A DNA stretch of 32,798 bases from a virus. This document shows, piece after piece, positions 2,656 through 19,482 of the stretch. Where the stretch lies: IMG/VR virus record IMGVR_UViG_3300030103_004907, positions 1-32,798 of that record. The stretch is one strand, 5' to 3'. The position numbers and the translations under genes are program-made. Numbering within the stretch: position 1 is the first letter of the stretch; every line of letters begins with the position of its first letter. A model generated the notes under the pieces. It saw nothing but the letters and a program-made list of their open reading frames with translations. It did not search any database and was not told the DNA's origin.

Positions 2656-2701
2656 ACAATATAACTTCAATCGAAGGCCAATGATTGAACAGGAGAAGAA
2701 A

Positions 2702-3592
2702 ATGAGTGACGAAAACGAAATGGAAAACGAAGGACTAATGGAACCAGAAGTTACTACTGATATGGGTGACACCGTAGAAGCAAGTGCTAATGAGAGTGTT
2801 GAAGTAGCAGAGGAGTATATGCCAAATTTCTCTTATACACATCACGACAAGGAACATGAGTTTCCTGAATGGGTACGTTCAGCAGTTCAAAGCAAAGAAC
2901 AAGAAGATCAACTTCGAGAGTGGGCTACTGCTACAGCAGGGCTACCAGAGCTTAAAGAAAAGCTTACCTCTAGATCAAGCAAGTCTAAAGAGTTAGAAGA
3001 TCAGTTAATTAATTTAACTGGTGGTTTATCTGACATAAAAGAACTTAGAGATGCAGGTGATTTAAGGGGAGTGTTCGGAAGGCTAGGAATTAAAGAAGAA
3101 GATTTTATGAAGTTTGCCGTAGAACTTGCCAAGGAAGATGAGCTACCTGAAGAACAAAGAGACTTCGTTAAGCAGAAAAGAGAGTTCGAAACTCAGCAAA
3201 AAGATTGGGAACAAAAGCAGATGCAGGAACAACAAAGACAATTTACTCATCAAGTTGAGGACGACTACAACCGACTAATGGGCACCATTACAACAGGTAA
3301 GTACGGCGAATTAAATAAAGCCATGGCCAAAAATAAAATTAATATGGCCGAAGAGATTTGCTTAGTTGGAAGGCACCATGAAGTTGCAAGTGGAACAGTC
3401 CCAGCTATAGAGGATTGTGTTCACAGAGTGTATGAAAAATACAGCCATCTGTTAAACAATAAACCAGAGACAGTTGTTCAGCAAGCGACCTTACCATCTT
3501 TGAAAGGAAATAACTCTACGGCCGTAAAGCCAAAAGTTAAATCTATTGAAGATATTGAGAAAGCTTACTTAGCACTCTCTAATAATAATTAA
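2702..3592 (+). CDS. Scaffolding protein
   Basis: 296 aa. An in-frame ATG at 2681 exists, but AGGAG at 2691-2695 lies 6 nt before ATG 2702, so the shorter start is preferred. The protein is very acidic at the N-terminus (many Glu/Asp in the first 50 residues), has long charged helices with a Gln/Glu/Lys coiled coil around residues 150-185 (EQQRQFTHQVEDD) and a basic C-terminal patch (KPKVKSIEDIEKAY). This composition is typical of phage scaffolds, whose basic C-terminal helix binds the capsid protein. It lies immediately upstream of the capsid gene, as expected. There is no sign of a fused protease. It probably guides procapsid assembly and is then lost. Confidence 0.75.
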   Translation: MSDENEMENEGLMEPEVTTDMGDTVEASANESVEVAEEYMPNFSYTHHDKEHEFPEWVRSAVQSKEQEDQLREWATATAGLPELKEKLTSRSSKSKELEDQLINLTGGLSDIKELRDAGDLRGVFGRLGIKEEDFMKFAVELAKEDELPEEQRDFVKQKREFETQQKDWEQKQMQEQQRQFTHQVEDDYNRLMGTITTGKYGELNKAMAKNKINMAEEICLVGRHHEVASGTVPAIEDCVHRVYEKYSHLLNNKPETVVQQATLPSLKGNNSTAVKPKVKSIEDIEKAYLALSNNN

Positions 3593-3605: not shown

Positions 3606-4871
3606 ATGGTAGCAAGTACTACTGCAACTTTCGACTCACTTCTTAAGGAATATCTTCCTTATGATTTGTTGGTAGAAGAAGTAATTAAGAGAGATTTCTT
3701 ACTCTCAAACGTAAAAAAAGATAACAGCTGGAAAGGTGGGGATTTAAAAGTTCCTTTCGTTGGAAATTCAGCAAGCTCAATGGCTTTCGGTAAATTGCCG
3801 GGATTCACTGGATCTGCAGCCGGAACAAACATTGTAGAAGATAACTATGTTGTAGGATCTATTTCTGCACAGAAAGAACTATGGGGATCAATGATTTTCA
3901 ATGACAGAGATTTATCTGCTCATGGAAGTTTAGAGCAATCATTCCTTAAAATTCTTCCTGATAGAATTAACGCTTTTACAGCAGCTATGAGAGATTCTTT
4001 AAGTGGATGTTTATTAACAGGCGGGCATATTGATACTATAACTGATCAATCAGATGCTTCTGATACTATTACAGTAAACAGACCAGAAAGATTTCAGATT
4101 GGACAATTAATTGAAATCCAAGCTGATGGAGGATCTGATGCTGTTGTTAGTGCTTATGTTAAGACTATTAATATGACTACTAAGGTTTTAAGCCTTGATG
4201 CAAACTTTGCATTAGACGATGGAGACAATTCAGTAGACTTGAGCAACGTAGAAATAGGCGATAAGGTTTTTCATGAAAATGGTGCAACTGATAATACATC
4301 AGTTTTCTCTTCATTAGCTTCTCAGTTGATGGCAGCAGAATCAGCAACTATTTTTGGTCAAACTAAAGCTAACTATCCACACTTACAAGCATATGAAAAT
4401 GCTTCTGTTGGTGATGTTGCTTCAGGAAACACTGCTCTTTCAGAGATTTTAGATGCTATGACTCAGGTTAGAAGAATCGGAAAAGGTGATCCAACTGATT
4501 GTGTTATGAGCTACGAGCTGTACTCTCAATGTTTGAAAGAACTTAACACTGATGTTCAGTACCAATCAGAGGCTGGAAAAGCTTCTAGGTATGGATGGAG
4601 TGAAATTAGTGTTGGTGGACCTAAAGGTTCAATCAAGCTTGTTGCAGTTCCAGAAATGGACAAAGACAAAGCTTTCATCATTGATTGGAATGCTGTTAAA
4701 TTACACTCAAATGGAATGATCGAAAGAAGATCTGCTCCAGATGGGAAGCAATTTTATGAAGTAAGGAATCAAACTGGTTACCAATATATTGTTGACCATA
4801 GATTTTTTGGTGAATTAGTTGTTAGTAAGCCATCACATTGTGGTGCTTTATCTGGTATTTCAGGTATCTAG
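3606..4871 (+). CDS. Major capsid protein
   Basis: 421 aa, start set by AGGAG 6 nt upstream of ATG 3606, the strongest-looking ribosome binding site in the head region. The N-terminus (TTATFDSLLKEYLPYDLLVEEVIKR) and later GKLPGFTGSAAGTNIVEDN resemble N-terminal arm and E-loop regions of HK97-fold capsid proteins. Residues ~155-225 look like an inserted beta-rich domain (RFQIGQLIEIQADGG, then VLSLDANFAL). The C-terminal part (NGMIERRSAPDGKQFYEVRN and YQYIVDHRFFGELVVSKP) looks like the capsid A/P-domain end. Position after portal and scaffold and before a terminator-like hairpin fits an abundantly expressed shell protein. Family inferred from context and motifs. Confidence 0.82.
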   Translation: MVASTTATFDSLLKEYLPYDLLVEEVIKRDFLLSNVKKDNSWKGGDLKVPFVGNSASSMAFGKLPGFTGSAAGTNIVEDNYVVGSISAQKELWGSMIFNDRDLSAHGSLEQSFLKILPDRINAFTAAMRDSLSGCLLTGGHIDTITDQSDASDTITVNRPERFQIGQLIEIQADGGSDAVVSAYVKTINMTTKVLSLDANFALDDGDNSVDLSNVEIGDKVFHENGATDNTSVFSSLASQLMAAESATIFGQTKANYPHLQAYENASVGDVASGNTALSEILDAMTQVRRIGKGDPTDCVMSYELYSQCLKELNTDVQYQSEAGKASRYGWSEISVGGPKGSIKLVAVPEMDKDKAFIIDWNAVKLHSNGMIERRSAPDGKQFYEVRNQTGYQYIVDHRFFGELVVSKPSHCGALSGISGI

Positions 4872-4923: not shown

Positions 4924-7900
4924 ATGGCAAAGTTAAGCACATATTTAACCATGCACCAAGAAGGACTTTTAGGTAGGGCGGCTCGTACATTTAATTCAGG
5001 GAATCTTGTTTCAACTGAGTATCTTGCTCCTTCTGGAACTGTGGTAGGAGAACAATGTCTTTTTATAGAATATATATACGATGCTAACGGGAATATTGTG
5101 TCTGAAGATAAGTCTATTGAAATATGGGGTTCAACTCAGGAGACTATAGCCGAATCAACAACAAATCCTTCTCCAGCAACACAAGCAAATTCTATCGTTT
5201 CAACAGATGGTAATGAGGCAGGTGTTACGGTTGGTGGTCGATTAAAGGTTGATGCCGATCTTACCGGTGGTACAGTTAATGTAACTGCTACCAGTTTAGA
5301 TATTGAAGACATTACAATAACTGATGTTGGAACTACTGATGATTCACTTAAAGTAAAACATACAGGTGATGTTTCAACAAAAAACCAAACTCAATACTCA
5401 GACTCAACTAGTAATACACAATACTGGTTAGGGCTTGAAGAAGATAATCAACTGACTCTACAATATGTAGATGATTCGGTTTCAAATCAAAAAACTATAT
5501 TCTATGCACTTCCTTCAGTTTCAATTGATGGTAGTTGTTTAGCACGAAGATATTATTTAGCAGATGATGAAGTTACAGGTGAACATACTTATATAGGCAC
5601 TTGGACTCAAGCAATGAACGACAGAATTAAACCACCGCCAACTGATATAACGGTGGCAAGTGGTTCACTTACTACAGTAGAAGATCAAGTTGCAACAACG
5701 GTTCTTGCAGGTCTCGGCGTTGTCGGAGGCGAGTCCCCCGTAACATTATCTATGACTTCTAACGGAGGTTTAAGCGTAGAAATTTCAGGAGCTAACTTAG
5801 TAGTTGCTTCTGGAGGAATTGACGGAAGTGCTTCTGGTAGTAGTCCTTTTACAGTAGGTATTAGAGCGACAGATGTATTTGGTGCAATCTACGATGAAAA
5901 TCTTAGCGTCACTGTCACAACAAATGATATTACAGACATAGCACTTAGTGCATTAACAGTACTTAATAATGCCGTAGACGGTGATGATATTGGAAACCTT
6001 ACCTGCACAGGTGGAGTAGGTGATGTTTCCTATGCAATCACAAGTAATGGAGGTTTAGATAACTTAAAGATTACAGATACTGGAACATCAACAGCAACAC
6101 TCGAGGTTGATACCGGTGGAATTATAGATTCTACAGGAACCTACACTATTCGGATAACAGCAACCGATACTATAGCTCAAACTTATTATGAGGATTTTGA
6201 TATTACAGTTACTCCTTCATATACAAATTCAAAATCATTAGACTTAAATGCTAATGGTGTTGATCCTGATTTTAAAAGCAACCATATACAAGAGACTTCT
6301 GGGTTATTCAATAGCCATTTAACGGCAAGTACACCATTTGGTGTAAGTACTTGGCTTAAAACCAATACAGACCCAGCAACAACACCTGCAGTTGTATATC
6401 CTACAAGGTACTTTGATATACCAACTGATGCTTCATGGAATGGGAGTCAACACGGTAACGGTATTGGAATCACCGACCTAGGTATAGAAGACGGCGGCAT
6501 TTTACATTCTGGGCCGGTGGGTGAAAAAAAACCTTGGTCTTTTAGTTTTTGGTGTAAAGATCCTACTACAGACAGATACTTTATGACTATGAATGGGGAT
6601 CAAAGTAATTTTGAGTTACATTTTAGAATATCCTCAAATGGTCAATTAAGGATTGAAAAAGATTTTATAGGTTCAATCGGGGCGGAATTTCTTGGGTCTT
6701 TAGACGACGGAGATTGGCATCATGTTATAGTTTCATACAAACATACAGATGCAAGCGATAATATCTGGGATGGGTCAACATATAATTGGTATGTAGATCC
6801 CTATCTGAATGGGCCTAATACTGGTACCTACGATGATATGGGTTTCACAGTTTTTATAGATGGAGCTAGAGCAGCATACGATACAGTTAATAGTACAGGC
6901 TTGACTCAATGGGAAGATGATGTTTACTACTGCCCTAATGAAAGCTCAACAGTTGATACTATGGTGCTAGGTCAGTACTTTCATTCATGGAAAAGACATT
7001 ACAAAGGGAAAGCTGCAAACGTAGCCTTCCATGATGAAACAATAAGTGCAGCTAAAGCAGCAACCTTATATAATAGTGGAAACCCCACAGATTTATCGGC
7101 AGATCCAAATTGTATTGTACTCTTAAACCCAGAAGGACTTTCAGCAGGTGCTTCCATTGCATATGATACAGTTTTAACTAATAATGGAGGAGCTTCTAGC
7201 TCTAGTGACCATACATGTACTGTACTACATAATTCCGGCGATACTATCCCATGGACTTTAGAGGCTGAAGATGCATCGGGCGAATCTTTATATTATGAGA
7301 TGACACCTGCAGTAACAACCTCTGCACCAGTAATTTTCAGAAACGGTGGAAAAACTGGAACTGCTCCCAATGAAGTTTTCGGTGAAGGAATAACAGTTTC
7401 TATATCAGATAAATATGCAGATTCTACTGGAGCTTATGTTTCAGCAGGTGCCCAAGATCCAAAATTAGTAATATCTTTTGATGGGTTTGAGGATGATGCT
7501 GATAAAGTATTGGTATATGATAATGACGTAACAGATAACACTTGGAAAAATATTGTTGTTACATACGACAGTTCCGCTACAGATAATAAAGACAGAATTT
7601 CATTATATGTAAACAATGTTGAACAAACTCCATTAGGGACACCTTCAATCACATTTACAGGTAATGATAACTATTTCAAAAATGTTTCAGATACAGCAAC
7701 TAACACAACTATTGGTGGCTCAGGTTTTGATGCCGCTAGTGCAAATAGTATCTATGCACTTCAGGCTGAAATAGATTCTATATCACTTCATAGTGAAGCA
7801 CTGTCTTCAGCTATGGTAACTGAATTGTACGACTCTGGAGTACCTGCAAACCTATTAGACGAGTCACTTACCTCTGACCACACCAAAATTGAAACATGGG

Positions 7901-8040
7901 TAAGTTTCGAGGATGAAACAGATAACGGTACTACAGCACAGGACGAAACTGACAATAATAAAGATATGACTTTAGTTAATATGGCAAGTGGTGATTATGT
8001 AACACTAACTGTATTGGACTCGATATATTATAATCCATAA
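4924..8040 (+). CDS. Large Ig-like/LamG multidomain virion surface protein
   Basis: 1038 aa, AGGGAAG just before ATG 4924. Visible regions: a unique N-terminal domain (1-~85); a module at ~148-236 with DVSTK, YSDST, YWLGL, DNQL and TWTQA, shared with the protein at 8311; two Ig/cadherin-like repeats (~237-336 and ~337-435), each ending in an alternating Thr/Val strand such as ITATD; then two LamG/concanavalin-like jelly-roll domains (~440-720 and ~800-975) with the usual WHHVIVSY or WKNIVVTYD strand and a closing IDSISLHSEALSS-type strand plus LYDSG. Ser/Thr/Gly/Asp-rich and Lys-poor. LamG domains commonly bind carbohydrates, so a receptor-binding fibre or capsid decoration role is likely. 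Which virion site it occupies cannot be read from sequence. Confidence 0.72.
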   Translation: MAKLSTYLTMHQEGLLGRAARTFNSGNLVSTEYLAPSGTVVGEQCLFIEYIYDANGNIVSEDKSIEIWGSTQETIAESTTNPSPATQANSIVSTDGNEAGVTVGGRLKVDADLTGGTVNVTATSLDIEDITITDVGTTDDSLKVKHTGDVSTKNQTQYSDSTSNTQYWLGLEEDNQLTLQYVDDSVSNQKTIFYALPSVSIDGSCLARRYYLADDEVTGEHTYIGTWTQAMNDRIKPPPTDITVASGSLTTVEDQVATTVLAGLGVVGGESPVTLSMTSNGGLSVEISGANLVVASGGIDGSASGSSPFTVGIRATDVFGAIYDENLSVTVTTNDITDIALSALTVLNNAVDGDDIGNLTCTGGVGDVSYAITSNGGLDNLKITDTGTSTATLEVDTGGIIDSTGTYTIRITATDTIAQTYYEDFDITVTPSYTNSKSLDLNANGVDPDFKSNHIQETSGLFNSHLTASTPFGVSTWLKTNTDPATTPAVVYPTRYFDIPTDASWNGSQHGNGIGITDLGIEDGGILHSGPVGEKKPWSFSFWCKDPTTDRYFMTMNGDQSNFELHFRISSNGQLRIEKDFIGSIGAEFLGSLDDGDWHHVIVSYKHTDASDNIWDGSTYNWYVDPYLNGPNTGTYDDMGFTVFIDGARAAYDTVNSTGLTQWEDDVYYCPNESSTVDTMVLGQYFHSWKRHYKGKAANVAFHDETISAAKAATLYNSGNPTDLSADPNCIVLLNPEGLSAGASIAYDTVLTNNGGASSSSDHTCTVLHNSGDTIPWTLEAEDASGESLYYEMTPAVTTSAPVIFRNGGKTGTAPNEVFGEGITVSISDKYADSTGAYVSAGAQDPKLVISFDGFEDDADKVLVYDNDVTDNTWKNIVVTYDSSATDNKDRISLYVNNVEQTPLGTPSITFTGNDNYFKNVSDTATNTTIGGSGFDAASANSIYALQAEIDSISLHSEALSSAMVTELYDSGVPANLLDESLTSDHTKIETWVSFEDETDNGTTAQDETDNNKDMTLVNMASGDYVTLTVLDSIYYNP

Positions 8041-8049
8041 AGGAATGAT

Positions 8050-8304
8050 ATGAGATTATCACGAAATGAATTAGAACAGCTTTGTATTAAATACTTAAAT
8101 CACAAAGAGCAGAATATTAATTGTTGTGATTGTGAATTTGGTGCAGGTGAGGTGTTATATACGGTTAACAAGAATAGGTTCAGAATTGAACTAAGTAAGT
8201 ATATTAAAAAATTATTAAAAGCTGGAATAATTAAAGAATCAACTAATGGATATGACATTGTTGTATCTAAAAAGATTGTAGAGCTATTTCAATATATAAG
8301 CTAG
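8050..8304 (+). CDS. Small helical protein paired with the LamG protein
   Basis: 84 aa, AAGGA 5 nt before ATG 8050. Not a family I recognise. The C-terminal half is helix-strand-helix (LSKYIKKLLKAGIIKES, YDIVVSKKIVELFQY), reminiscent of a small winged-helix. It shares the pattern GII-x-E, aromatic-x-I-x-V, E-x-F-x-x-Y with the protein at 9925. A Cys-rich patch (CCDC, residues ~29-32) is not shared. The 12-nt junction CCATAAAGGAAT linking the LamG gene to this one is identical to the junction before the 9925 gene, so gene and partner seem to have been duplicated as a unit. A chaperone or assembly partner for the upstream surface protein is a guess. Confidence 0.65.
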   Translation: MRLSRNELEQLCIKYLNHKEQNINCCDCEFGAGEVLYTVNKNRFRIELSKYIKKLLKAGIIKESTNGYDIVVSKKIVELFQYIS

Positions 8305-8310
8305 GTAATT

Positions 8311-9915
8311 ATGGCAAATGAAACTAAAATAATTAACAAACCTAAAGTCACAGTTGATGGCAACATTTCCATAGATGACAGTACACCAATAGACACTGCT
8401 ATTACAGGAACACCTAGTGTGAGTGTAACAAATACACCTACAGTAACGGCAAACTCAACGATACAGAATGCAACACTAGCAGTAACAAAAAGTGGAACTT
8501 GGGCAGTTGATTCTATCACTGCTGATGTTAGCACTAAAAGCAAAACGAGTTATTCAGATTCTACAACTAGTGTGGATTACTGGTTAGGTCTTTACAATGA
8601 TAATCAATTAATTAAAAAAGCAGTTACTATTTCAGCTAGTACAATAGTTACAGTATCTACATTTCAAACTACTAGTGTAGACACTGCAAATGGATGTATA
8701 CAAATTACAGAGTTTTTGGACGGTTCCAGTAATGTAACTGGTCGAAGTAGCCAAGTTATTACTTGGACACAAGCTCATGAGGATTTAAGCCTTCCAAGTT
8801 TAGGAACATTAAGTTTAAATACAACAACAATTGTTGAGGATTCTATAGAAGGAGTTGATATAGGTACGTTAAGTGCTGCCGATGCCGTTGGAGCAGTGGA
8901 TTGGTCGATAGAGACTAACCCTAGTTCACTTGAAAACGTAAGGATCGTAGGGGATGTATTAGAGGCAGACTCAGGTGGAATTGATAGTAGTTCAGGAACT
9001 TATGTTTTAGGAATTAAAGCGATTGATTCGGTAGGGCAAACTAGAACTAGTAATTTCACGATTACGGTTTCTAGTGCATTTGGTTCAACGAAAAGTTTAA
9101 ATATTACAACAGCAGCAGCAGCTCATGGTTGGCCATCACAAGCAAATAAGATACAAACAACAACAACCTTTAGTGGGCCTAACGAGGATTCAACTATAAG
9201 TTTTTTCTGGAAATTGAATGCAACAACATATACTGCATCAACATCAACCTCTGATGGACATGCAAATATAATATATTTTGGCACTCATTGGAGTTCTTAT
9301 ATAAGGGTTGGTATGGCCCCTTCGGGATTAGGAGGGGATGCAGGTGATCTTAAGGTACAAGTTAGAGCAAGTGCAATTCACTCAGCGACTTATACCCTCC
9401 CAGTAGGGCAACCAGAAACTAGTAATTGGCATCATTGTGCACTTGTATTGAAAGGTGTGAATGGTGTTACAAATAACGGGGATCAAATGGAATTATGGTG
9501 GGATGGCGTTGAGTTGGCCATTAATAATTCTCATACTATGTCTGGGACATGGGGGACTGGTGCAGCATCTACATTTGCAGTTGGTAGTGGTTCTTACCCT
9601 TCAACGGGACATATAGATGAAGTAACACTTTGGGATAGGGCTTTTGATTCAGATGAAATAGCTGAAATATATAACTCTGGATCTGTAAGTGATTACAATA
9701 GTCATTCAGCAGCTAGTGATCTTTTATTATGGTGGCGATTCGGGGAAGGATCTGATGCCGCCGATGGTACAGGAGTAGCTGGTGCAGGGAATATAATTAA
9801 TGACATGAGTTCAGCATCAAGTGGTGCAAATGACGGACTTCCTGCTATTAACGTAGGTGATGGTGCAGGTAGTGCTGAATTACTTTATTTAGACGATACA
9901 ACTTATGCACCATAA
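8311..9915 (+). CDS. Ig-like/LamG virion surface protein, paralogue of the 4924 product
   Basis: 534 aa, AGGT 4 nt before ATG 8311. The region at ~73-160 (DVSTK, YSDST, YWLGL, DNQL, TWTQA) aligns with residues ~148-236 of the larger protein; the N-terminal ~85-residue domain of the larger protein is absent. One Ig/cadherin-like repeat follows (~163-257, GTYVLGIKAIDSVGQ), then one LamG-like jelly-roll (~258-520) with WHHCALVLKG, IDEVTLWDRAFDSDEIAEIY and LLLWWRFGEG. It is thus a shorter relative that has one Ig and one LamG unit where the larger has two of each. The probable function is a second receptor- or glycan-binding surface protein. Both paralogues end in aromatic-x-Pro before the stop. 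Confidence 0.72.
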   Translation: MANETKIINKPKVTVDGNISIDDSTPIDTAITGTPSVSVTNTPTVTANSTIQNATLAVTKSGTWAVDSITADVSTKSKTSYSDSTTSVDYWLGLYNDNQLIKKAVTISASTIVTVSTFQTTSVDTANGCIQITEFLDGSSNVTGRSSQVITWTQAHEDLSLPSLGTLSLNTTTIVEDSIEGVDIGTLSAADAVGAVDWSIETNPSSLENVRIVGDVLEADSGGIDSSSGTYVLGIKAIDSVGQTRTSNFTITVSSAFGSTKSLNITTAAAAHGWPSQANKIQTTTTFSGPNEDSTISFFWKLNATTYTASTSTSDGHANIIYFGTHWSSYIRVGMAPSGLGGDAGDLKVQVRASAIHSATYTLPVGQPETSNWHHCALVLKGVNGVTNNGDQMELWWDGVELAINNSHTMSGTWGTGAASTFAVGSGSYPSTGHIDEVTLWDRAFDSDEIAEIYNSGSVSDYNSHSAASDLLLWWRFGEGSDAADGTGVAGAGNIINDMSSASSGANDGLPAINVGDGAGSAELLYLDDTTYAP

Positions 9916-9924
9916 AGGAATATG

Positions 9925-10197
9925 ATGAAACAAGAGATATCTGTAGAAAAACTGTATGATGTAATAGAGGAACGTATTAATAATGCCCACCCACCAATTA
10001 GTATAGGTGGTAAGAAAGTAAAAGCTGGTTCAGCTTTAAGAGGATTAGATGAAGGTACGTGGAACTCATTAGTGAGTATGGATCTTCATATCATGCAAGA
10101 ACTAGGTATCATTAATGAAGTTGATGAGGTTTTTACAATCAATGTAAATGAAGATGTCATACTTGAAATGTTTAAAAAATATGATGCAAAAGAGTAA
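9925..10197 (+). CDS. Small helical protein, probable paralogue of the 8050 product
   Basis: 90 aa. ATGs at 9922 and 9925 are adjacent; 9925 gives AAGGA a 5-nt spacing, matching the gene at 8050. The C-terminal half (LGIINEVDEVFTINVNEDV, LEMFKKY) repeats the GII-x-E, aromatic-x-I-x-V and E-x-F-x-x-Y pattern of the 8050 product, while the N-terminal half differs (ISIGGKKVKAGSALRGLDEG). No Cys cluster and no known motif. Position after a LamG protein is the same as for its relative. Function unknown. Confidence 0.65.
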   Translation: MKQEISVEKLYDVIEERINNAHPPISIGGKKVKAGSALRGLDEGTWNSLVSMDLHIMQELGIINEVDEVFTINVNEDVILEMFKKYDAKE

Positions 10198-10200
10198 ACT

Positions 10201-10407
10201 ATGAACACAAAAGCGGTTATTACAGGTTTGGTTACAGCGGCGATTATAGCTGTGGTTTCTGTAGTAGGAGCTAACTATTCAGAGATAGGTAAATTAAGTG
10301 AAAGAGATAGGTCTACAGAGGCTTCTCTTAAAAGAATAGAGGACAAAGTGGATAATATTCACCGGTTCCTTATGAAACGAAACAATGATACAATGATAAA
10401 ATATTGA
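10201..10407 (+). CDS. Membrane-anchored coiled-coil small protein
   Basis: 68 aa, starting 3 nt after the previous stop. Residues ~6-24 form one hydrophobic transmembrane helix (VITGLVTAAIIAVVSVVGA), followed by a charged, coiled-coil-forming segment (ERDRSTEASLKRIEDKVDNI) and a basic tail. The layout (one N-terminal helix plus a coiled coil) resembles inner-membrane spanins or XhlA-type accessory lysis proteins, but the gene is far from the lysis genes and among tail genes. It could equally be a membrane-targeted virion component. There is no lipobox. Function open. Confidence 0.65.
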   Translation: MNTKAVITGLVTAAIIAVVSVVGANYSEIGKLSERDRSTEASLKRIEDKVDNIHRFLMKRNNDTMIKY

Positions 10408-10414
10408 GGTATTT

Positions 10415-11131
10415 ATGCATATAAACGGGCAACTTAAAGGGGCACAGGTAGAAGCGGTCACTGATACTGCAGCTAGGCCAAGTGCTGGGAGTAAGGGTAG
10501 AATTCTTTACGACATAGCTTTAGGGCAACTAATATATGATAACGGCTCAGCATGGGTAGTATTACCTAAACAAAGCGATACTTATACTAAAACAGAAATT
10601 GATACAGCTTTAACAAGCTCTACTAGGGTTATATATGAAGAAAAATTAATGGCCAGTGATAAAGATTTAACAAACACTGCAGCTTATATTACAGAATTTG
10701 ATAATTCTACATTCCCAAACACGGGTTTGTATAGAATTACAACAGATTTTAATATATTTATTGATGGAAATGATGGTGGTTATGCTGCAGGTTTACTTAA
10801 CTATTTAGAGTTCTATATCACTAATGCAGCAGATGATGCTAGGGTACAGCTAGACCAAAGTGATGGTGATACGCTTACCCTTGGTACTACTATTTCTGAT
10901 TTTGCAGACGTTCGGATGGAATACTTAATATTGAATGCAGGTATGAGTTTTTTGATAGACTTAAGCGATTCGGCATATTCTGGTGTTTTAGTAGGTGGCT
11001 GTAGGTTTAGGGTTAAAGCAAACCACTCCGGAAGTACAAAGGGAGCAACGATAAGAAAGGGATCCTCTGTTAGGATTGAAAAACTACCTAATCACTTATC
11101 ATATGCAGACAATAGTAATAGCTGGACTTAA
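10415..11131 (+). CDS. Fibre-like virion protein A
   Basis: 238 aa, GAGGT 5 nt before ATG 10415. The N-terminal ~60 residues (MHINGQLKGAQVEAV, AARPSAG, GRILYD, YDNGSAWVVLPKQSDT) are a module commonly seen at the start of phage tail or head fibre proteins, where it attaches to the virion. A short linker (TYTKTEIDTAL) leads to a beta-rich C-terminal domain with FIDGNDGGYAAGL and a closing VRIEKLPNH. The N-terminus is nearly the same as in the 11258 product, and the C-terminus shares signatures with both 11258 and 15234. Probably a small receptor-binding fibre. The exact attachment site is not visible. Confidence 0.68.
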   Translation: MHINGQLKGAQVEAVTDTAARPSAGSKGRILYDIALGQLIYDNGSAWVVLPKQSDTYTKTEIDTALTSSTRVIYEEKLMASDKDLTNTAAYITEFDNSTFPNTGLYRITTDFNIFIDGNDGGYAAGLLNYLEFYITNAADDARVQLDQSDGDTLTLGTTISDFADVRMEYLILNAGMSFLIDLSDSAYSGVLVGGCRFRVKANHSGSTKGATIRKGSSVRIEKLPNHLSYADNSNSWT

Positions 11132-11257: not shown

Positions 11258-11920
11258 ATGAAAGTAAACGGACAATTACATAATGCACAGGTGGAGGCAG
11301 TTACTAATACGGCCGCTAGACCTGCAGCAGGACAGAAAGGTAGAATCCTTTATGATTTAGCACTTAGTCAATTAATATATGACAATGGTTCAGCATGGGA
11401 ATTACTCCCAAAACAGAGTGATACAAATACTAAAAGTGAAGTAATAACATACCATGAAAGGCATACTAATGATGCTCAAACAAACATATTTTCCAGCGGT
11501 ACGTATATTCCTGATCTACAATTTAATGCTTTGCCTGTTGGTAGATATAGATTGACGGGCCGTTTAAAAACAAGACTTGACGGAGACCTTTCCGGTGATA
11601 CTGTTGATGCAACATATATTAATAACACCGCCTATATCGAATCTTTCAATTCTTCGGATGTTTCCCAAGGGAACTTGTTAACTGTGAAAACCACTCATCA
11701 CGGTATAACTATCAGTGGTTACAACTTTTATACGGATATAGTTCACATATGGGATAATGCAATCGCCAATGCTAAACTTAAAGTTAAAGTACTTGGCCCA
11801 TATTCGGGTGGTGATACAGGTGATAGTTATGTTTATGCACACTCAGCTACAGAACCTGTCTATTTAACATTAGAATTATTACCACCAGCTACTTATGTAG
11901 CAACCACGGATTGGGCTTAA
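11258..11920 (+). CDS. Fibre-like virion protein B
   Basis: 220 aa, AGGATTG just upstream of ATG 11258. The N-terminal module is nearly that of the 10415 product (MKVNGQLHNAQVEAV, AARPAAG, GRILYD, YDNGSAWELLPKQSDT), and the linker changes at TNTKSE. The C-terminal domain is beta-rich and differs strongly from A in the middle (RYRLTGRLKTRLDGDLSGD, YAHSATEPVYLTLELLP) but ends with the same strand-LELLP/LEQLP-type closure. This conserved anchor plus variable tip is the pattern expected of diversified receptor-binding proteins. The DNA similarity of the first ~60 codons indicates a fairly recent duplication with 10415. Confidence 0.68.
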   Translation: MKVNGQLHNAQVEAVTNTAARPAAGQKGRILYDLALSQLIYDNGSAWELLPKQSDTNTKSEVITYHERHTNDAQTNIFSSGTYIPDLQFNALPVGRYRLTGRLKTRLDGDLSGDTVDATYINNTAYIESFNSSDVSQGNLLTVKTTHHGITISGYNFYTDIVHIWDNAIANAKLKVKVLGPYSGGDTGDSYVYAHSATEPVYLTLELLPPATYVATTDWA

Positions 11921-11984: not shown

Positions 11985-12467
11985 GTGCCACAAGACGATG
12001 ATTCAGGAAGTACAGTATTTACAATATTAGAAGAATTCATGACAAGAATAGCAACTCATGATCATAATGGGGTTGATTCCAAGAAAATTCAAGCCAACTT
12101 CGCTAAGATTAATGTTATTATCACACCTGTTTGGGGAACAACAAATGAGCCAGCAGGAAGTCTGGCAGCAGAATCAGACATAGGTTCAAAGATTTGTACA
12201 GTACAGGTGTCAACGACAGCAGAAATACAATCAAACAAATTAGACAATACTGCAACTCTAGAAAGAGAGGCAACAGACTCAGATGCTGACAGCAAAACAG
12301 TGTATACATATGCACCCGTATTCAGTTTTTATTATCTAGAACAGGTTTCGGGCACTACCAATTATTACTGGCAACCTTTCCATCCTGATTGGATATGGAC
12401 AGGTGACCAAGAAATAAAAGTATATTCTAACGTTGAGCACTCGAAACTAAGGATAGTACAATACTAA
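11934..12467 (+). CDS. Structural protein of unknown role (MAKDIN protein)
   Basis: 177 aa, AGGAGATAAGAG before ATG 11934. Begins MAKDINGTSSYSNGAYQ, then an acidic loop, a helix with ILEEFMTRIATHDHNGVDS and a beta-rich C-terminus rich in aromatics (FSFYYLEQV, YYWQPFHPDWIW). The T-H-D-H-N-G-V-D segment resembles a short collar found in phage fibre-associated proteins, but I do not recognise a named family. Its stop overlaps the nozzle start by one base (TAATG), so it is translationally coupled to the nozzle gene. A truncated copy lies at 11149. It may be a connector between fibre and nozzle; this is inference from position. Confidence 0.68.
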   Translation: MAKDINGTSSYSNGAYQVPQDDDSGSTVFTILEEFMTRIATHDHNGVDSKKIQANFAKINVIITPVWGTTNEPAGSLAAESDIGSKICTVQVSTTAEIQSNKLDNTATLEREATDSDADSKTVYTYAPVFSFYYLEQVSGTTNYYWQPFHPDWIWTGDQEIKVYSNVEHSKLRIVQY

Positions 12468-15241
12468 TGGCAACTGAACCAACAAGGACATTAAGGTATT
12501 CAGAAGTTAAGATAGATAACTTCGGTGGCGGTATTACTGATAGGTATATTGCTTCTGATTTGTCTAAATATAAAACTGCTGACAATTTAATCATATCAAA
12601 CGTAGGGCCAACAACTAGACCAACTTTAAAAGTTAGACCCGGATTTAGAGGTTATTGTTTTGATAAAGCAAATACTGCAGAATCTGCACTATCTGATTTT
12701 AGTATGAATTCTACATACCCTTTTATGGGGGTTTTAAAAGATGATACATATCTAGCATCAGATTCTTTATTTTACAGGTTGGAAGATGAGATAGAAAACT
12801 CTGCTTCATCAGAAGCTTCTATAGTGGCTAACAGGATAGTCATGACAGCTCATGGACTTACCGACAATAGACTTTGCTATGTAGTAGGGTCTAATTTACC
12901 AACAGGTATTTCGGAGAAAACAACTTACAGAATAAACTATGTAGATGCTAATAACATAGAACTTTATTCTTATGACGTCGAAGCCCATACAGATGCAGGT
13001 TCATTAGTTACATTAACCCCTTCAACGGTGAACTCAACTTTCAAAGTTATTCAAAAAGCTTATATGAAAGAAATAACTAAAACACAAACAGGTAGTATAT
13101 TTAACAGCATGGGTAACCTTTACCCAGTCTCGTTTTCAATGAGAACTAATCAGTTATTAGCAGTGGCAAGAAATAGTTCGGCCCTAGAAAAGCCGGTTAG
13201 GATATATCAAAAATGTGATGATGATGGGAGTAATCCTGTATATATAGTTGAAGGGATGGAATTACCTAACTGCTATGATGCTGTAGATACACCTCTAGTA
13301 GAGTGGGGTTCTGCTACAGCTGCAGATTTTGGTAAAATTGCCGGGGAAGGAGCAGCTCCAGATAAGGCATATCAATATGCTGTATGTTTTACTAGAAGAT
13401 TTAACATTAAAACAGAAACGGGTGTTGTTAAAAGAAAACAATTTGGGCGAGTGTCTTATTCTAAAACAATTAATATGGAAGACCCGGGAACAGATAGTGT
13501 AACCGTTACACTTCCGGGTATCCCTGATGATTTTGAAGTAATGCAAAACCCATATACTCCGGGTTCAACACTTGTGGTTGAATTATATAGAACCGTGAAC
13601 GGGGGTACAGAATTCTTTAAAGTAGGAAGTGATACTGCTACAGAATTTAATAACAATACAATATCAGATACTGTTTCTGATGCTAACCTTGTAATGAACA
13701 CTCCCTTATATACTAGCGGGGGATATCTTAACCATCATAATCCACCACCATGTAAATATATGACTACGGTGGGTAACTTAACTTATTATGGTTATGTTCA
13801 AGAAACAGTTGATGGTACGGATTTCGAGAAACCAGAGAGAGTTATGCAATCTATTCCGGGAACATCAGGAGAGGTTGGTAGTTCAAGTTATGTTGATGTG
13901 GATGATACAATTGTAGGTTTAGGCCAAGCAGGTGCATTCCCAATGGTGTTCACTGAAACGTATGTATATAGAATAGAAGGTAAGATAGATAGTTTTGGAG
14001 TGGGTTCAGTAAGAGTAAAGGCTGTAAGTGAACATGTAGGCTGTGCAAGTAATGAAGCCATAGTTTCTACACAGCAAGGTGTATATTGGATGGGTAACGA
14101 TGGATTCTATTTTTCTGATGGATATCAATTAGTGGAATTAACAACAGGTTTAAAAGAAAGCTTTGATGAACTTGTTAACAAATCAAAAGCCGTTGCTACA
14201 TATGATAAAACTAATAATATGGTATATTGGGGAGTTTGTGATAATGCTTCAATAACTGAAAACAATCACATGTGGGTGCTAAATACAAAGACAGGCGGTT
14301 TCACAAAAGCAACATCAAAGAAAGATGACCTTGATATAGTGTCAATAATAGAAAAAAATGGATCAATATATCGAAGCGATACATCTGGTTATGTTTATAA
14401 ACACCATGAAGATATTAAAAAAGATACTATCAGAAGTGTTACGGCAGGGGAACAAGATTTCACTACGTGGAATAACACTCATATACCTTTTGAATATCTT
14501 TCTTCTGCAACTGACTTTGGCACTGCAGGTGTTCGAAAGTGGGTTAAGGATGCAACGATAACAGTTAAATCCAATACTAATATAGGTATAATGCCTTATT
14601 CTAATAACGATGATTCTGCTCGTGTAAGAGATATGAAAGAGATAAGAGAACTTGGTACCGTACTTTGGGGTAGTGAAACATTTGTTTGGGGTAACCCTGA
14701 TATTGAATGGAGAACACCTGAGACTGTATCTAATGTTAGAAGATTTCCAAGGTCTTCAATGAGATGCAGAAGGAAGCAGATAGGGTTAAAACCTGCTCCT
14801 ATATCAGTCCTTAGGTCAGATATTTATGGAGGAGATGCATTAGTAAGTGTTATTCAAGACCCTTCAGATGCTACTTTATATACAATAACTCTTAACCCAT
14901 TAAAGACTGATGGCTTAACAGCGAACACTGTCATATGGCCAACGGCTGATTTCTTATTTGAATCTCAATTATGTTTTCCAGAAACGGCTACTCAATATAG
15001 TGAAACAAGCACTGAATATACTCACGAACTTGAGTTTGTAAGTAGAACCAGTGATTCAGTTATAATAGTACAAGGTGGAACCTTAACGGGGTTAGCTGCA
15101 GGAACTTATGATAGAAAATGGGTTCTTAAAGTATACCAGAAAGACCAAGAGATAGAATTGACAGGGATTAATATAAGATTTGCTCCTATGTCAAATGCAT
15201 ACGATAGATACCAAAGTGAAGAAGAGGGCGTGAATGAGTAA
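12467..15241 (+). CDS. Tail nozzle/tubular protein (beta-propeller-like)
   Basis: 924 aa. Begins VKIDNFGGGITDRYIAS, a typical opening of podovirus tail tubular B/nozzle-type proteins. The middle (~residues 480-640) has repeated short beta-strand blades characteristic of a propeller: MVFTETYVYRIEG, GVYWMGNDGFYFSDG, NNMVYWGV, HMWVLNTKTGGF and GSIYRSDTSGYVY. These correspond to the platform propeller of T7 gp12 or P22 gp10 relatives. The C-terminus is beta-rich (WVLKVYQKDQEIELTGI). It would form the distal conduit of the short tail below the adaptor encoded at 15901. The start overlaps the upstream stop by 1 nt and the end overlaps the 15234 gene by 8 nt. Named by recognition of the blade pattern and gene order. 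Confidence 0.68.
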   Translation: MATEPTRTLRYSEVKIDNFGGGITDRYIASDLSKYKTADNLIISNVGPTTRPTLKVRPGFRGYCFDKANTAESALSDFSMNSTYPFMGVLKDDTYLASDSLFYRLEDEIENSASSEASIVANRIVMTAHGLTDNRLCYVVGSNLPTGISEKTTYRINYVDANNIELYSYDVEAHTDAGSLVTLTPSTVNSTFKVIQKAYMKEITKTQTGSIFNSMGNLYPVSFSMRTNQLLAVARNSSALEKPVRIYQKCDDDGSNPVYIVEGMELPNCYDAVDTPLVEWGSATAADFGKIAGEGAAPDKAYQYAVCFTRRFNIKTETGVVKRKQFGRVSYSKTINMEDPGTDSVTVTLPGIPDDFEVMQNPYTPGSTLVVELYRTVNGGTEFFKVGSDTATEFNNNTISDTVSDANLVMNTPLYTSGGYLNHHNPPPCKYMTTVGNLTYYGYVQETVDGTDFEKPERVMQSIPGTSGEVGSSSYVDVDDTIVGLGQAGAFPMVFTETYVYRIEGKIDSFGVGSVRVKAVSEHVGCASNEAIVSTQQGVYWMGNDGFYFSDGYQLVELTTGLKESFDELVNKSKAVATYDKTNNMVYWGVCDNASITENNHMWVLNTKTGGFTKATSKKDDLDIVSIIEKNGSIYRSDTSGYVYKHHEDIKKDTIRSVTAGEQDFTTWNNTHIPFEYLSSATDFGTAGVRKWVKDATITVKSNTNIGIMPYSNNDDSARVRDMKEIRELGTVLWGSETFVWGNPDIEWRTPETVSNVRRFPRSSMRCRRKQIGLKPAPISVLRSDIYGGDALVSVIQDPSDATLYTITLNPLKTDGLTANTVIWPTADFLFESQLCFPETATQYSETSTEYTHELEFVSRTSDSVIIVQGGTLTGLAAGTYDRKWVLKVYQKDQEIELTGINIRFAPMSNAYDRYQSEEEGVNE

Positions 15242-15899
15242 GTTAAATCTAGAGATAGACAGGCTAGATTCATCCCTTGGGCTGAAAGAAGGCATGTCTG
15301 CTGTGGAAAATTCTTTATCTAGGACAGAAAGGATAATAAGTGATATCGATAAAAGAATATCAAATCTTAATGTTTCTAGTGATACTATTTTTTGGGAAAA
15401 GAAATCTCCGGGATCAGATGTTACCTCCTTTGCTTCAGATACTGCTATAATAGATTTTAATAACCTACAATTAGCGACATATAGGTGGTCTCTTGTATGT
15501 TATTTTTTCATAGATGGTAATGATGGTGGTTGGAGTGCCGGTCTTGATACAGATTTTATCGTAAAATTATATAATTCATCAGACGTTTATACTTCTAAGG
15601 AATGGGAAGTTCAATGGCGTTGGAATACTAACAATAATTTAATTGATATAACTGACGATAGTAGTCCTGTTACAGATGGTACTTTTACGTATAACAATGA
15701 AGGGCCATTATCAGAAATTTATGGGACAGTCTCAGCGTCAGGAATATTTGTCAATCCTAATTTAAATGGCAAACTAAAATTTATAGTAGATGAAGATTCA
15801 TCTTATGATCATCGAATCTACGGTGATGCTGATGAAACCTATTTAATATTAGAACAATTACCGAATCATAAATTAGTAACCGACGGAAGGTGGGATTAA
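15234..15899 (+). CDS. Fibre-like virion protein C, coiled-coil N-terminus
   Basis: 221 aa, overlapping the nozzle gene by 8 nt (ATGAGTAA). Residues ~1-45 form a coiled coil (LDSSLGLKEGMSAVENSL, RIISDIDKRISNL) replacing the NGQL-type anchor of the products at 10415 and 11258. The C-terminal domain shares with them FIDGNDGGWSAGL (A has FIDGNDGGYAAGL) and the ending YLILEQLPNH (A has VRIEKLPNH, B has LTLELLP). It therefore combines the same distal domain with another anchor, probably attaching near the nozzle or adaptor whose genes flank it. A tail fibre or spike is likely. Confidence 0.65.
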   Translation: MSKLNLEIDRLDSSLGLKEGMSAVENSLSRTERIISDIDKRISNLNVSSDTIFWEKKSPGSDVTSFASDTAIIDFNNLQLATYRWSLVCYFFIDGNDGGWSAGLDTDFIVKLYNSSDVYTSKEWEVQWRWNTNNNLIDITDDSSPVTDGTFTYNNEGPLSEIYGTVSASGIFVNPNLNGKLKFIVDEDSSYDHRIYGDADETYLILEQLPNHKLVTDGRWD

Positions 15900-15900
15900 T

Positions 15901-16584
15901 ATGAGTACATTAAAGACATTAAGAGAAGATATACAAGCAGATCTAGACCTTGAAGATGAGGTATTCATTAGTGATGCTGATATAAACCGATGGATTAACC
16001 AAGGGATACGGAGTGCCGAACGGATTATCCATGGCTTATATGAGGATTACTTCTTAAGCAATACTGATACTTCAATAACAACTGCTAGTAATCTAGTTAG
16101 TTATCCAAGTGATATATTCGCTAATAAAATCAGAAAGATAATATTCAAAAATAGCAGCAAGGAAGTACAAGAGGTAAGGAGAGTAACCAACCTAGTAGCT
16201 GCAACTGACCGAGATGTTAACGAAACAGGTGCTAATCCGACGTTGGAATGGAGTCCTACTAATGACTCTGTAAACGGTAAAAAGATACGCCTATTCCCCT
16301 CAGCCTCACGAGATGGTACTCTATCTATATGGTATATTAGGAACGCTCTACAGTTATCAGCGGATGATAGTGAGTGTGATATAGATGAATTTGAGGTTTA
16401 CGTTAAGCAATATACTAAAGTACAATGTTACCTAAAAGAAGGTGACCCAAGAGCTGATTCCGCTAAGGCTTTAGAACAACAATATAAAGTGGAAATGATT
16501 GAGGTGCTCACGAATATGTCACCTGATAATAATGATGAAATACCATTAGATATGTCGTTTTATGATGACAGTATAGGAGAATAA
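15901..16584 (+). CDS. Tail adaptor protein (tubular A/gp4-like)
   Basis: 227 aa, ATG two nt after the previous stop. The helical N-terminus (LREDIQADLDLED, SDADINRWINQGIRSAERI) followed by a beta domain (ISYPSD-like LVSYPSDIFANKIRKIIFK) and a helical C-terminus (FEVYVKQYTKVQCYLKEGD, ALEQQYKVEM) is the standard arrangement of podovirus head-to-tail adaptors (T7 gp11 and P22 gp4-type). Such proteins dock under the portal ring and hold the nozzle. Its gene lies between nozzle/fibre and internal virion genes. Good fit by pattern and context; exact family untested. Confidence 0.72.
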   Translation: MSTLKTLREDIQADLDLEDEVFISDADINRWINQGIRSAERIIHGLYEDYFLSNTDTSITTASNLVSYPSDIFANKIRKIIFKNSSKEVQEVRRVTNLVAATDRDVNETGANPTLEWSPTNDSVNGKKIRLFPSASRDGTLSIWYIRNALQLSADDSECDIDEFEVYVKQYTKVQCYLKEGDPRADSAKALEQQYKVEMIEVLTNMSPDNNDEIPLDMSFYDDSIGE

Positions 16585-16585
16585 T

Positions 16586-17521
16586 ATGGGTGGACTTACA
16601 GCAACTTTTGATAGGACTTTTGGGACAAATGTTTCAGGAGATAACCCTCATGGATATACTGCAGGAACTACTGCTAAGAAAGTTGGGAGAAATACTTTAA
16701 AGGCAGTTGATGACATATTGGATGTGCCACTAAACATGATCGGAATGGATTCAAATCTAAGTGGTTGGAGTAAATCAGAATTAGATCAACTTAAAGAAAT
16801 AGACCCTGCTAGGTACGAGGCAGTTACATCTGCTAAGGAAGCTCAGGCTGCAAGATCAGATTTCAGGCAATATCAAGATGAGATGGGTGAGCTATTCGGA
16901 TGGAAGCGTGGTGAAGGTTTTACTAAACCAACAGAGATGAGTGAATCCGGTGTGGCTATGCAAAAGGGTGCTAGAGACCAAAGAGCTAGAGATCTTTCAA
17001 GTGTTAAAGGAAGGCAAGCTGGTAGATACGGAGCTTTATCCGACAGGCTTATGATGTCAGGAGCTGACCAAGGTGCACTAGAAAGAGCGTCACTGGCCAA
17101 TGAAAGAACTAGCGGAATGGAAGAACAACAAACGATGGGTCAATATAGTAACTTACTTAACAAGATTCAATCTGAAAATATACTGCAACAAGAACAAGCA
17201 CAAAGGCAATTCGCTCAAGGTGCTGGATTACAAGCACCTCAATACCAAGCAACAATGGCAGAAGGTGGAAGACAGTTCGATGCAGGAATGAAAGCTAAAT
17301 ATGACATTGCAAATATGCAAACACAATTAGGCCAACAGGCAGGTAAATCTGCAGCTTTTGGTAACCTAGGTAACTTATTAGGAATGGGAGCTACTTACTT
17401 GGCCGGCGGCGGTCCTATGGCAATGATGTTAGGTGGTATGGGTGGAAGTACTCTTTTAGGAGGGGGTTCAACCTTAACAAGTGGTTCAGTAAGTAGACCA
17501 ACATACGATATGAATTATTAG
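16586..17521 (+). CDS. Internal virion protein 1 (ejection protein candidate)
   Basis: 311 aa, AGGAG 6 nt upstream of ATG 16586. Central helical, Gln/Ala/Arg-rich part (RYGALSDRLMMSGADQG, RASLANERTSGMEEQQ) and a C-terminal Gly/Met/Leu-rich hydrophobic segment (LGNLLGMGATYLAGGGPM) that could insert in a membrane. This resembles the first of the three ejection proteins of podophages (T7 gp14 or P22 gp7 class), which are released with the DNA and form an outer-membrane pore. It is followed by three further large or coiled-coil genes, as in other ejection clusters. Assigned by composition and position. Confidence 0.6.
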   Translation: MGGLTATFDRTFGTNVSGDNPHGYTAGTTAKKVGRNTLKAVDDILDVPLNMIGMDSNLSGWSKSELDQLKEIDPARYEAVTSAKEAQAARSDFRQYQDEMGELFGWKRGEGFTKPTEMSESGVAMQKGARDQRARDLSSVKGRQAGRYGALSDRLMMSGADQGALERASLANERTSGMEEQQTMGQYSNLLNKIQSENILQQEQAQRQFAQGAGLQAPQYQATMAEGGRQFDAGMKAKYDIANMQTQLGQQAGKSAAFGNLGNLLGMGATYLAGGGPMAMMLGGMGGSTLLGGGSTLTSGSVSRPTYDMNY

Positions 17522-17530
17522 GAGAGAGGA

Positions 17531-18865
17531 ATGGCTAGAGAAAGTAGAGATAGAATTGAGCAGCTTGATCAGGAGATGGCAAATCTAAGGAGACAAGGTT
17601 ACTATGTTCCGAGTATCCCTTATAGTGGGAGACAGGATCTTGATAACCCCGGTGCTCCAGTTAATAGTGCTGCTTACAGAGAGGCTGTAATAGAGAAAGC
17701 AAGGTCAGCAGGAAGAAACCCAAGCTTTGAAGCTCAGCAAGAAGTGAGAGATTATGCTCAACAACTAGCTTATAACACAGCAGAAAGAAGTCCTGCTTCA
17801 GTGCCAACAGGTGAAGAATCATCAAGTAGTGCAGGTAGGAAAGCTGAATATTTTGATAAAGATGCTAGACAAGGTTTGTATGAAAAAATAAACGAAAGAG
17901 TCCAAGATGCATTTCATGAGAATTGGGACAATACTGAGAAACGGGAATACAATGAACATATAAAAAGAATAAACGAATTGAGGGCAGAAGCTGACAAAGG
18001 TGTTGTTGACTTAACTAGAGAAGGCAAGACTGATTACATGGAATATGGCACAGTCGATAATCGTTTAACTCAAATAGAAGAAGAAGCAAAAGCTATTGAA
18101 AAACTAAAAGACGAGCAGGATAAAGATGATAGAGCTGCATTAGAGGATACAGGGTTCAATGTCGAAGGAAGTATGACTCAAGAAGAACAAGATCAGCTTC
18201 GTGACATATTAAACCAAAGAACCGGTGGGTCAGCAGACTATTTAGGTGTTGATGAATTAGATCCAAGGGCAGTTGATCAGGATACATCAGTTGATGATTC
18301 TGAAAGAGCAACTCAAGATGATTTTAGATTCTATGAGCACCCGGGAGTACAAGATCCGGAAAAGAAATCCTCGGATGTATTAAAAGAAATAATAAAAGGT
18401 AATAAGCCTAGTGATTTAAAATTCCTCACCGAAGGTATAGATGAAGATAAAGATGAATCTATTTTTGGTGGTGATTCTAGCGGTAAAATAAATAGAGGAC
18501 AGCTTTTAGCATTACTTGGTCTTAGAACTTTAGATCAAGGAGCTAAAGATTATGCTAGAGCAAGATCTTCAGAAGGTGACCCATATGCAGCTATGTTTGG
18601 CTCTAATTACAGAGTTGGGGATCAGGGATTTGAAAGGCCTAGAAACCCTTTAGGGGCGACTAATGCCCTATTAAGGGTAAGTGCAATTAGTGATGATCCA
18701 GATACAAGGAAGCTGTCAAGAGCGTTACTTGGTGGGAAGCTTAAAGCTGGGGCCAAGGATGAATATGAAGTTCCGGCAGCGGTAACAGATGCTAGAGATG
18801 AGTCAATGAGTTTACTTGATCGATTATTAGCAGAAAATGTATTTAAGTTTAAAGGGGATTTCTAA
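17531..18865 (+). CDS. Internal virion protein 2 candidate, acidic coiled coil
   Basis: 444 aa, AGGAGAGAGGA directly before ATG 17531. Mostly charged helices with long heptad-like stretches (~110-220: KREYNEHIKRINELRAEAD, LTQIEEEAKAIEKLKDEQD), a low-complexity acidic middle (~220-300) and a Gly/Leu-containing helical segment (RGQLLALLGLRTLDQGAKD) near the C-terminus. No catalytic motif was seen. The 3' end overlaps the next start by 1 nt (TAATG). Probably an internal core or ejection protein by position. No family recognised. Confidence 0.58.
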   Translation: MARESRDRIEQLDQEMANLRRQGYYVPSIPYSGRQDLDNPGAPVNSAAYREAVIEKARSAGRNPSFEAQQEVRDYAQQLAYNTAERSPASVPTGEESSSSAGRKAEYFDKDARQGLYEKINERVQDAFHENWDNTEKREYNEHIKRINELRAEADKGVVDLTREGKTDYMEYGTVDNRLTQIEEEAKAIEKLKDEQDKDDRAALEDTGFNVEGSMTQEEQDQLRDILNQRTGGSADYLGVDELDPRAVDQDTSVDDSERATQDDFRFYEHPGVQDPEKKSSDVLKEIIKGNKPSDLKFLTEGIDEDKDESIFGGDSSGKINRGQLLALLGLRTLDQGAKDYARARSSEGDPYAAMFGSNYRVGDQGFERPRNPLGATNALLRVSAISDDPDTRKLSRALLGGKLKAGAKDEYEVPAAVTDARDESMSLLDRLLAENVFKFKGDF

Positions 18866-19482
18866 TGGCCATAATAGATGATGCTGAGGCAATCAAGAGA
18901 TTATTAGTTGAATCTGAGGAAGCCAAAGAGCTTGATCCAACAGAACAACTAGCTAACTTATTTGATATTGGTGACTTGATAGGAACTTATGGTTCCAATG
19001 CTGCCGGTTTAATAAGTGCTTTAGGTCTAACTACATCAAGAGTAAAACCAAAGCGTTCGGCAAATATCCCTCAAGCGGAACTTACAGGTGAGTTAACTCA
19101 ACGTAAGATGGCACAAGAGAAAGCTAAGAGTGAAGCTGCTTATAGAAAAGAAGCTAGAGAAATGAAATCGAAAGAGATCCAAGATCAAAAGAATTTACTG
19201 GATATGATTTCTACTCGTAGTAAATTAGAAGATTCCCAGACAGCTCAAGAGAAGCAAATTGATAGTAATCTACAAGTATTAGAAAAAAGATTGAATTCTT
19301 ATATTAAAGCAGAAGACAAGGATAAGGTTGCCAAAACGGAAGACCGTATCGAGAGTGTACAACAAGCTAGGGCTTTAATAGATTCCAAATATGGCAAAGT
19401 TGATAAGAAAAACTATAGAGAATACCTAATCGTTTTAGAAGATTTTCAAGCCAATAAAGCTAATAAAGATAAAGAAGATTAA
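18865..19482 (+). CDS. Internal virion protein 3 candidate, coiled coil
   Basis: 205 aa, start coupled by TAATG to the preceding gene. The N-terminus contains a mild hydrophobic segment (LIGTYGSNAAGLISALGL, ~37-54); from ~75 onward it is a long basic/acidic coiled coil (KMAQEKAKSEAAYRKEAREM, DSNLQVLEKRLNSYI). It ends directly before the 973-aa gene. Probably a structural partner of that protein. No recognised family. Confidence 0.58.
   Translation: MAIIDDAEAIKRLLVESEEAKELDPTEQLANLFDIGDLIGTYGSNAAGLISALGLTTSRVKPKRSANIPQAELTGELTQRKMAQEKAKSEAAYRKEAREMKSKEIQDQKNLLDMISTRSKLEDSQTAQEKQIDSNLQVLEKRLNSYIKAEDKDKVAKTEDRIESVQQARALIDSKYGKVDKKNYREYLIVLEDFQANKANKDKED

Follow-up and report, generated by a model that had tools for sequence, protein, structure and literature searches.

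A LamG/Ig surface-protein gene followed by a small partner gene: a candidate mobile head-appendage module in uncultured phages

Directly behind the capsid gene of an uncultured phage lie two gene pairs, each consisting of a large gene for a LamG/Ig-type protein and a small gene at its 3' end. Does such a pair constitute a unit, and if so, what might the small protein do for the large one? The DNA analysed here (the window) comprises the complete 32,798 bases of one uncultured virus record, and its source is a phage of the short-tailed type, i.e. a virus of bacteria; all the other data used in this work are likewise contigs from uncultured sources. The record begins within the terminase gene (1-310), and was thus cut or opened there. 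The terminase end is followed by the portal gene (589-2655), the scaffold gene (2681-3592), the major capsid protein gene (3606..4871, + strand) and then the two pairs. The capsid gene shows weak SU10-type profile matches (PF17236, E 0.0055; phrog_14242, E 0.0016), and proteins 42-78% identical to its product are encoded 3' of the portal and scaffold genes in related phages.

Layout of the locus and make-up of the large proteins

The two pairs of the same layout described in the initial annotation were recovered exactly, all on the + strand, as LARGE1 (4924..8040, 1038 aa), small1 (8050..8304, 84 aa), LARGE2 (8311..9915, 534 aa) and small2 (9922..10197, 91 aa). A gene for a short membrane/coiled-coil protein (10201..10407, +), about 90% identical in DNA to its counterparts in the related contigs L006 and L014, marks the downstream edge of the module, and fibre-like genes follow it. 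The fibre-like products of 10415-11131 and 11258-11920 are 37% identical over their length, and the product of 15234-15899 has a 60-aa stretch in common with that of 10415; several surface-type genes are thus multiplied in the window phage.

LARGE1 is composed of module A (aa 1-74, 4924..5145, +), a linker, module B (aa 167-232, 5422..5619, +), two Ig-like domains (aa ~240-432, 5641..6219, +) and a C-terminal LamG half (aa 433-1038, 6220..8037, +) with two LamG-type domains. LARGE2 begins with a linker, which is followed by module B (aa 90-157, 8578..8781, +), predicted with low confidence to be a five-stranded beta meander, a predicted Ig/cadherin-like domain (aa 166-256, 8806..9078, +) and one LamG domain (aa 280-451, 9148..9663, +; Pfam E 9.7e-7, above the cut-off). 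The motifs DVSTK, YSDST, YWLGL, DNQL and TWTQA, which were said to be common to both proteins, are indeed present in the same order in each; those from YWLGL to TWTQA characterize module B, a module of ~66 aa whose profile matches LARGE1 167-232 and LARGE2 90-157 at E < 1e-29. The proposed Ig and LamG numbers of 2+2 and 1+1 also hold, as the alignments contain two and one Ig repeats, and Laminin_G_3 (PF13385) scores above its cut-off in two stretches of LARGE1 (aa 529-608 and 835-933) and in one of LARGE2. For LARGE2, AlphaFold was run on 16 aligned rows; the model is weak as a whole (mean pLDDT 56), with values of 70-92 in the Ig region. Its residues 281-486 are modelled as a LamG/ConA-like jelly roll, which matches the PAPP-A LamG domain with a VIA Z of 12.2 (rmsd 3.5 across 170 residues). 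Both large proteins are thus LamG/Laminin_G_3 (ConA-like) domain proteins, by the profile cut-off for both and by the jelly-roll fold for LARGE2. The LamG model of LARGE2 also matches many unrelated ConA-like lectin domains, from which no function was inferred, since this fold is merely common.

Module A is homologous to the N-terminus of a ~225-aa protein that seven relatives encode directly 3' of their capsid gene (L002, L017, L018, L019, L020, L024 and L025, the genes of L018 and L025 being truncated by the contig end), with E values of 1e-8 to 1e-10. Taken as the first 74-80 residues of LARGE1, module A is furthermore a distant relative of module B (hhalign probability 96%, E 6e-9). This distribution fits a presumed virion anchor of the short-tailed clade that was joined later to Ig and LamG domains. 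Proteins of 77-97 aa encoded just upstream of spike-like ~700-aa genes in L003 (15898-16131), L020 (12196-12447) and L019 (17166-17459) match module A weakly (E 0.01-0.04), and are possibly stand-alone copies of it. As for module B, window positions 5377-5555 are 97.8% identical over 179 bases to 10615-10793 of contig L001, compared with ~78% for the other shared DNA, so that, judging from this stretch of sequence, module B looks like a recombination spot.

The small-protein family

Small1 and small2 share no more than ~20% identity, and a direct comparison of the two gives a marginal score, which 33 of 2000 shuffles reach. Nevertheless, leave-one-out profiles run against more than 2600 ORFs recovered both: small2, a divergent member, scored E 4e-4 against E 1 for the next ORF, and small1 scored E 6e-15 against 0.11. 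The two are by their profiles true relatives. The small family, whose members range from 84 to 96 aa, is under purifying selection (dN/dS about 0.11-0.13). The sequence patterns first described for the two need correcting: E-x-F-x-x-Y fits small2 (EMFKKY) and fails in small1 (ELFQYI), and GII-x-E is not conserved across the wider family. Unrelated folds of the two proteins, which would speak against the proposed pairing, were not seen, in so far as small1 was folded and small2 was joined to it by profile homology.

The AlphaFold model of small1 (pLDDT 88.6) has the order H-(hairpin)-H-H-E-E-H, in which the second hairpin corresponds to the wing, and its nearest solved folds are mostly winged-helix domains, with weak scores (Z up to 4.8). 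Small1 is therefore predicted with good confidence to be a winged-helix-type domain, having three helices and a beta-hairpin wing; this prediction covers small1, and the membership of small2 in the family comes from its sequence profile. No solved chaperone or virion protein is prominent among the fold matches of small1, and Foldseek against the PDB and viral models gave no match at E <= 0.001. PDB sequence profiles returned chance-level matches only for the small proteins and for modules A and B, and for the small proteins no family in Pfam or PHROGs scored convincingly and the phage records gave no match, so that any relation to known chaperone families would be a distant one.

One alternative is that the small protein binds DNA as a winged-helix regulator, acting on the late operon or on a host gene and merely riding with the appendage gene. 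The predicted fold of small1 and its basic third helix, with a net charge of +6, would suit such a role. However, the other five members have a third helix with a net charge of -3 to 0, and each of them is net negative overall. Because the third helix is strongly basic only in small1, a DNA-binding role is disfavoured for the small family, which has no conserved basic recognition surface.

Co-occurrence, transfer and exchange of the pair

Scans of 2.9 million viral contigs yielded 21 portal relatives, among which L001 (with a truncated gene), L004, L006 and L014 have LamG-type large genes; L035 joined these carriers through a scan with the Ig domain. A small-family gene is located 1-9 nt 3' of the large gene in all six cases with a readable 3' end, which come from five contigs (the window twice, L004, L006, L014 and L035). 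The suggestion that each LamG protein has a dedicated small partner is thus borne out for the LARGE1/LARGE2 family: LamG relatives without a small partner were looked for, and none was seen among the six readable large genes. Neither a LamG nor a small gene was found in L002, L003, L019 and L020, which are long records of the same wider group. No match was found in 50,697 annotated phage records for LARGE1, LARGE2, the portal, the terminase, the small proteins or the ~225-aa protein, a scan of genome contigs with the portal was likewise negative, and PHROGs has no convincing family for the large or small proteins. In L006, the tail protein (14836-21612) that matches window 12467-15241 is 2258 aa long versus 924, and contains a weak LamG-like stretch, behind which no small-family partner is found.

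The number of cassettes varies: the window has two, L006 and L014 have one each, and L004 has a large-small-large arrangement in which the second large gene is cut. In L006, the short membrane-type gene lies directly 3' of the small gene via the spacer TAGGTAATT, which in the window and in L004 leads into LARGE2 instead, as expected if whole large-small units were gained or lost at that point. The word 'duplicated', originally applied to the two cassettes, is apt in that they are paralogues at one locus; however, the paralogy is old, the small proteins being ~20% identical, and the relatives have one or two cassettes, so that independent acquisition of the two is as likely as tandem duplication.

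The junctions between the members had been cited as a further shared feature. The 12-mer CCATAAAGGAAT is indeed identical before small1 (8035..8046, +) and before small2 (9910..9921, +) and occurs nowhere else in the window, but it carries little weight on its own, because it consists of the terminal Pro codon, the TAA stop and the ribosome-binding site. The same composition accounts for it without a role as a recombination site, and L006 and L014 differ at this position. LARGE1, small1, LARGE2 and small2 also share one reading frame in window 4924-10194, separated only by stops and 2-3 codons. Read-through of the stop codon, by which large and small proteins would be fused, was considered; the pairs are in frame in both window cassettes and in L004, and read-through is not a general mechanism, because they are out of frame in L006, L014 and L035.

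The pair has also moved into a phage of an unrelated type. L035 is a long-tailed phage, and its terminase, portal, capsid, tail tube and tape measure are different ones; the capsid, of the phrog_267 type, distantly resembles that of Pelagibacter phage HTVC026P. Its large protein (954 aa) is 76% identical to LARGE1 over LARGE1 residues 77-442, has another N-terminus and no module A, and its small protein is 88% identical to that of L006. The pair is located inside the head-gene block, after the capsid gene and before the tail tube and tape measure genes, where HTVC026P has short unnamed genes only. An assembly join in L035 is unlikely, because the large ORF starts at a codon that overlaps the ORF before it and stays in frame from there, and because the identity of its DNA to that of the other contigs is no more than 72-88%. 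Present in every readable relative and found in an unrelated phage type, the pair behaves as the two-gene module that had been supposed, and from these sequences it appears to be traded between viruses as a unit.

Which part of the large protein does the small one follow? For the six large-small pairs, the small proteins were scored by alignment, three parts of the large proteins were scored separately, and the scores were then compared. Similarity of the small proteins correlates with that of the LamG part at the C-terminus (r 0.92, a value equalled or exceeded in 15 of 720 label permutations), and not with that of the N-terminal part (r -0.01) or of module B plus Ig (r 0.03). The value of 0.92 is driven by two similar pairs, L004-L014 and L006-L035, and by rank the correlation with the LamG part falls to 0.17, since the remaining pairs are all near the floor. 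Module B and the Ig domains are near-identical in LARGE1, L004 and L035 (0.86-0.91), and the LamG halves and the small proteins differ (0.19-0.29); likewise, L006 and L014 share module B and Ig (0.82), and not LamG and the small protein (0.07 and 0.19, respectively). The DNA similarity of LARGE1 to L035, L004 and L006 (81-88%) ends at 6203-6210, i.e. at the Ig/LamG border. A second exchange edge lies 3' of the small gene, because the gene downstream does not track the small type. In L004-L014, DNA similarity covers the stretch for the last ~55 residues of the large protein and continues unbroken through the small gene, and the silent divergences of the small and large genes agree (0.64 and 0.68). 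In L006-L035, the pS of the small gene is 0.40 versus 0.60 for the large gene, and the DNA match begins at the small start codon, which suggests that the small gene may at times have been exchanged alone. The shared history of the small gene and the LamG half can be explained by linkage alone, as they are neighbours in the DNA.

It might accordingly be supposed that mobile phage DNA carries both genes by chance, with the small protein serving something else: neighbours at 1-9 nt are seldom separated by recombination, and few contigs are known. Against this stand the six of six occurrences, two of them in the window genome and one in the unrelated L035, the exchange edges, which flank the LamG-small block with none between the two in L004-L014, and the purifying selection on the small genes. 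We regard chance linkage as rather improbable. The regulator introduced above is a shade less probable still, since neither tracking of the LamG half nor presence twice, behind each LamG gene, would be expected of it.

Proposed role and comparison with known systems

We consider it about an even call that the pair encodes a mobile head appendage (a fibre or decoration) together with a small protein matched to its LamG tip, and that this small protein is probably an assembly chaperone or cap. The large gene would encode a modular surface appendage. Its N-terminus would be a virion anchor (module A in LARGE1, the linker in LARGE2), followed by the small beta module B and by Ig-like domains as spacers, and its C-terminal tip would consist of one or two LamG (ConA-like) domains of lectin type, which probably bind cell-surface glycans or proteins. 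The small winged-helix-type protein would be the matched partner of the LamG half, most probably aiding the folding or assembly of this half, or capping it until release, in the manner of fibre chaperones. The LamG half and the small gene would then form an exchangeable tip cassette, and module B-Ig-LamG plus the small gene a cassette that jumps between phages; the window phage has two cassettes, perhaps for two kinds of receptor. The head location, the receptor binding, the contact between large and small proteins and the chaperone or cap role are what we infer here.

The large protein is most likely placed on the head, as a decoration protein or head fibre, because the pair lies directly 3' of the capsid gene in two unrelated phage types, and because of module A. 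For an Ig-like capsid decoration, an Ig/cadherin-like domain is predicted and the gene is in the head block, the binding to the capsid being putative. That the large proteins are instead tail fibres, a reading that differs in location only, is unlikely, though it deserves the most weight among the alternatives: relatives without LamG have spike- or fibre-like proteins of ~700 aa further downstream in the same block, and a fibre-chaperone layout is typical of tail fibres (PMC10579305), but the L035 pair is within the head block ahead of the tail tube and tape measure, and fibre-like genes occur separately in the window, at 10415, 11258 and 15234.

On the role of the small protein, our order of preference is a chaperone or cap for the LamG tip, then a stable virion subunit, and last a regulator or mere linkage. 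For a chaperone-type partner, the small gene is directly behind the LamG tip and exchanged with it, the exchange resting on six pairs. The same linkage and co-transfer would be seen if the small protein were a structural subunit of the virion (an adaptor or tip), permanently bound, so that the pair formed a two-component appendage; there is one small gene for each large gene, and most small members are acidic or neutral small domains. An adaptor to the capsid is unlikely, however, since the similarity of the small proteins tracks the LamG half and not the N-terminal anchor. A tip subunit would not be touched by this argument; the subunit reading as a whole appears improbable, less so than chance linkage. 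The fullest form of the preferred reading is put forward tentatively, at somewhat less than even confidence: a new winged-helix-type family would provide LamG-tipped head appendages with chaperones or caps that are matched to them and exchangeable, in a two-gene cassette traded between short- and long-tailed phages, with two cassettes giving two specificities per virion. If true, this would be a head-borne, lectin-tipped counterpart of the tail fibre-chaperone pairs, with a small-partner fold rarely tied to such a job, and a defined two-gene unit by which unrelated uncultured phages alter their binding targets. Two cassettes in one phage provide a clear test case for partner specificity, and the small genes are ones that would otherwise be left among the unannotated short ORFs.

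The layout of a receptor-binding protein and its chaperone is known; the head-block position, the LamG/Ig make-up and the winged-helix-type small protein set the present pairs apart. In the fibre assembly proteins of the Tfa / T4 gp38 type, the fibre gene precedes the helper gene, and tip and helper are exchanged together. The present pairs have the same large-then-small gene order and the same joint exchange of tip and small gene, but show no detected sequence relation to these proteins and are located in the head block. A tail fibre with a cognate chaperone is common to Alteromonas phages of different morphologies and families, such as gp8/gp9 of A5 and gp26/gp27 of V22, in a study that also mentions Tfa of Mu (PMC10579305). 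As in these modules, a long receptor-binding-type protein is followed directly 3' by a small gene linked to the C-terminal tip, and the pair is found in morphologically distinct phages. On the other hand, LamG and Ig domains are present here and a trimeric fibre knob there, the pair here is directly 3' of the capsid gene, and the small proteins of 84-96 aa with a winged-helix-type prediction differ from the Alteromonas chaperones of 195-240 aa, which have helical bodies and beta-hairpins and resemble intramolecular chaperones.

Ig-type head decorations and head fibres are known to aid attachment (PMC7602432). T4 Hoc, T5 pb10 and N4 gp17 are, like the large proteins, surface proteins, several of them with Ig-like domains, and are thought to bind cell surfaces or glycans; the head fibres gp8.5 of phi29 (PMC7602432) share the placement on the head, which is here deduced from the gene position. 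The present proteins, whose capsid binding is putative, differ from these four in their LamG tip, modules A and B and dedicated small partner. Finally, domain shuffling of receptor-binding proteins (PMC10684548) is likewise a recent mosaicism of domains across unrelated phages; here, in contrast, the exchanged tip brings with it a separate partner gene.
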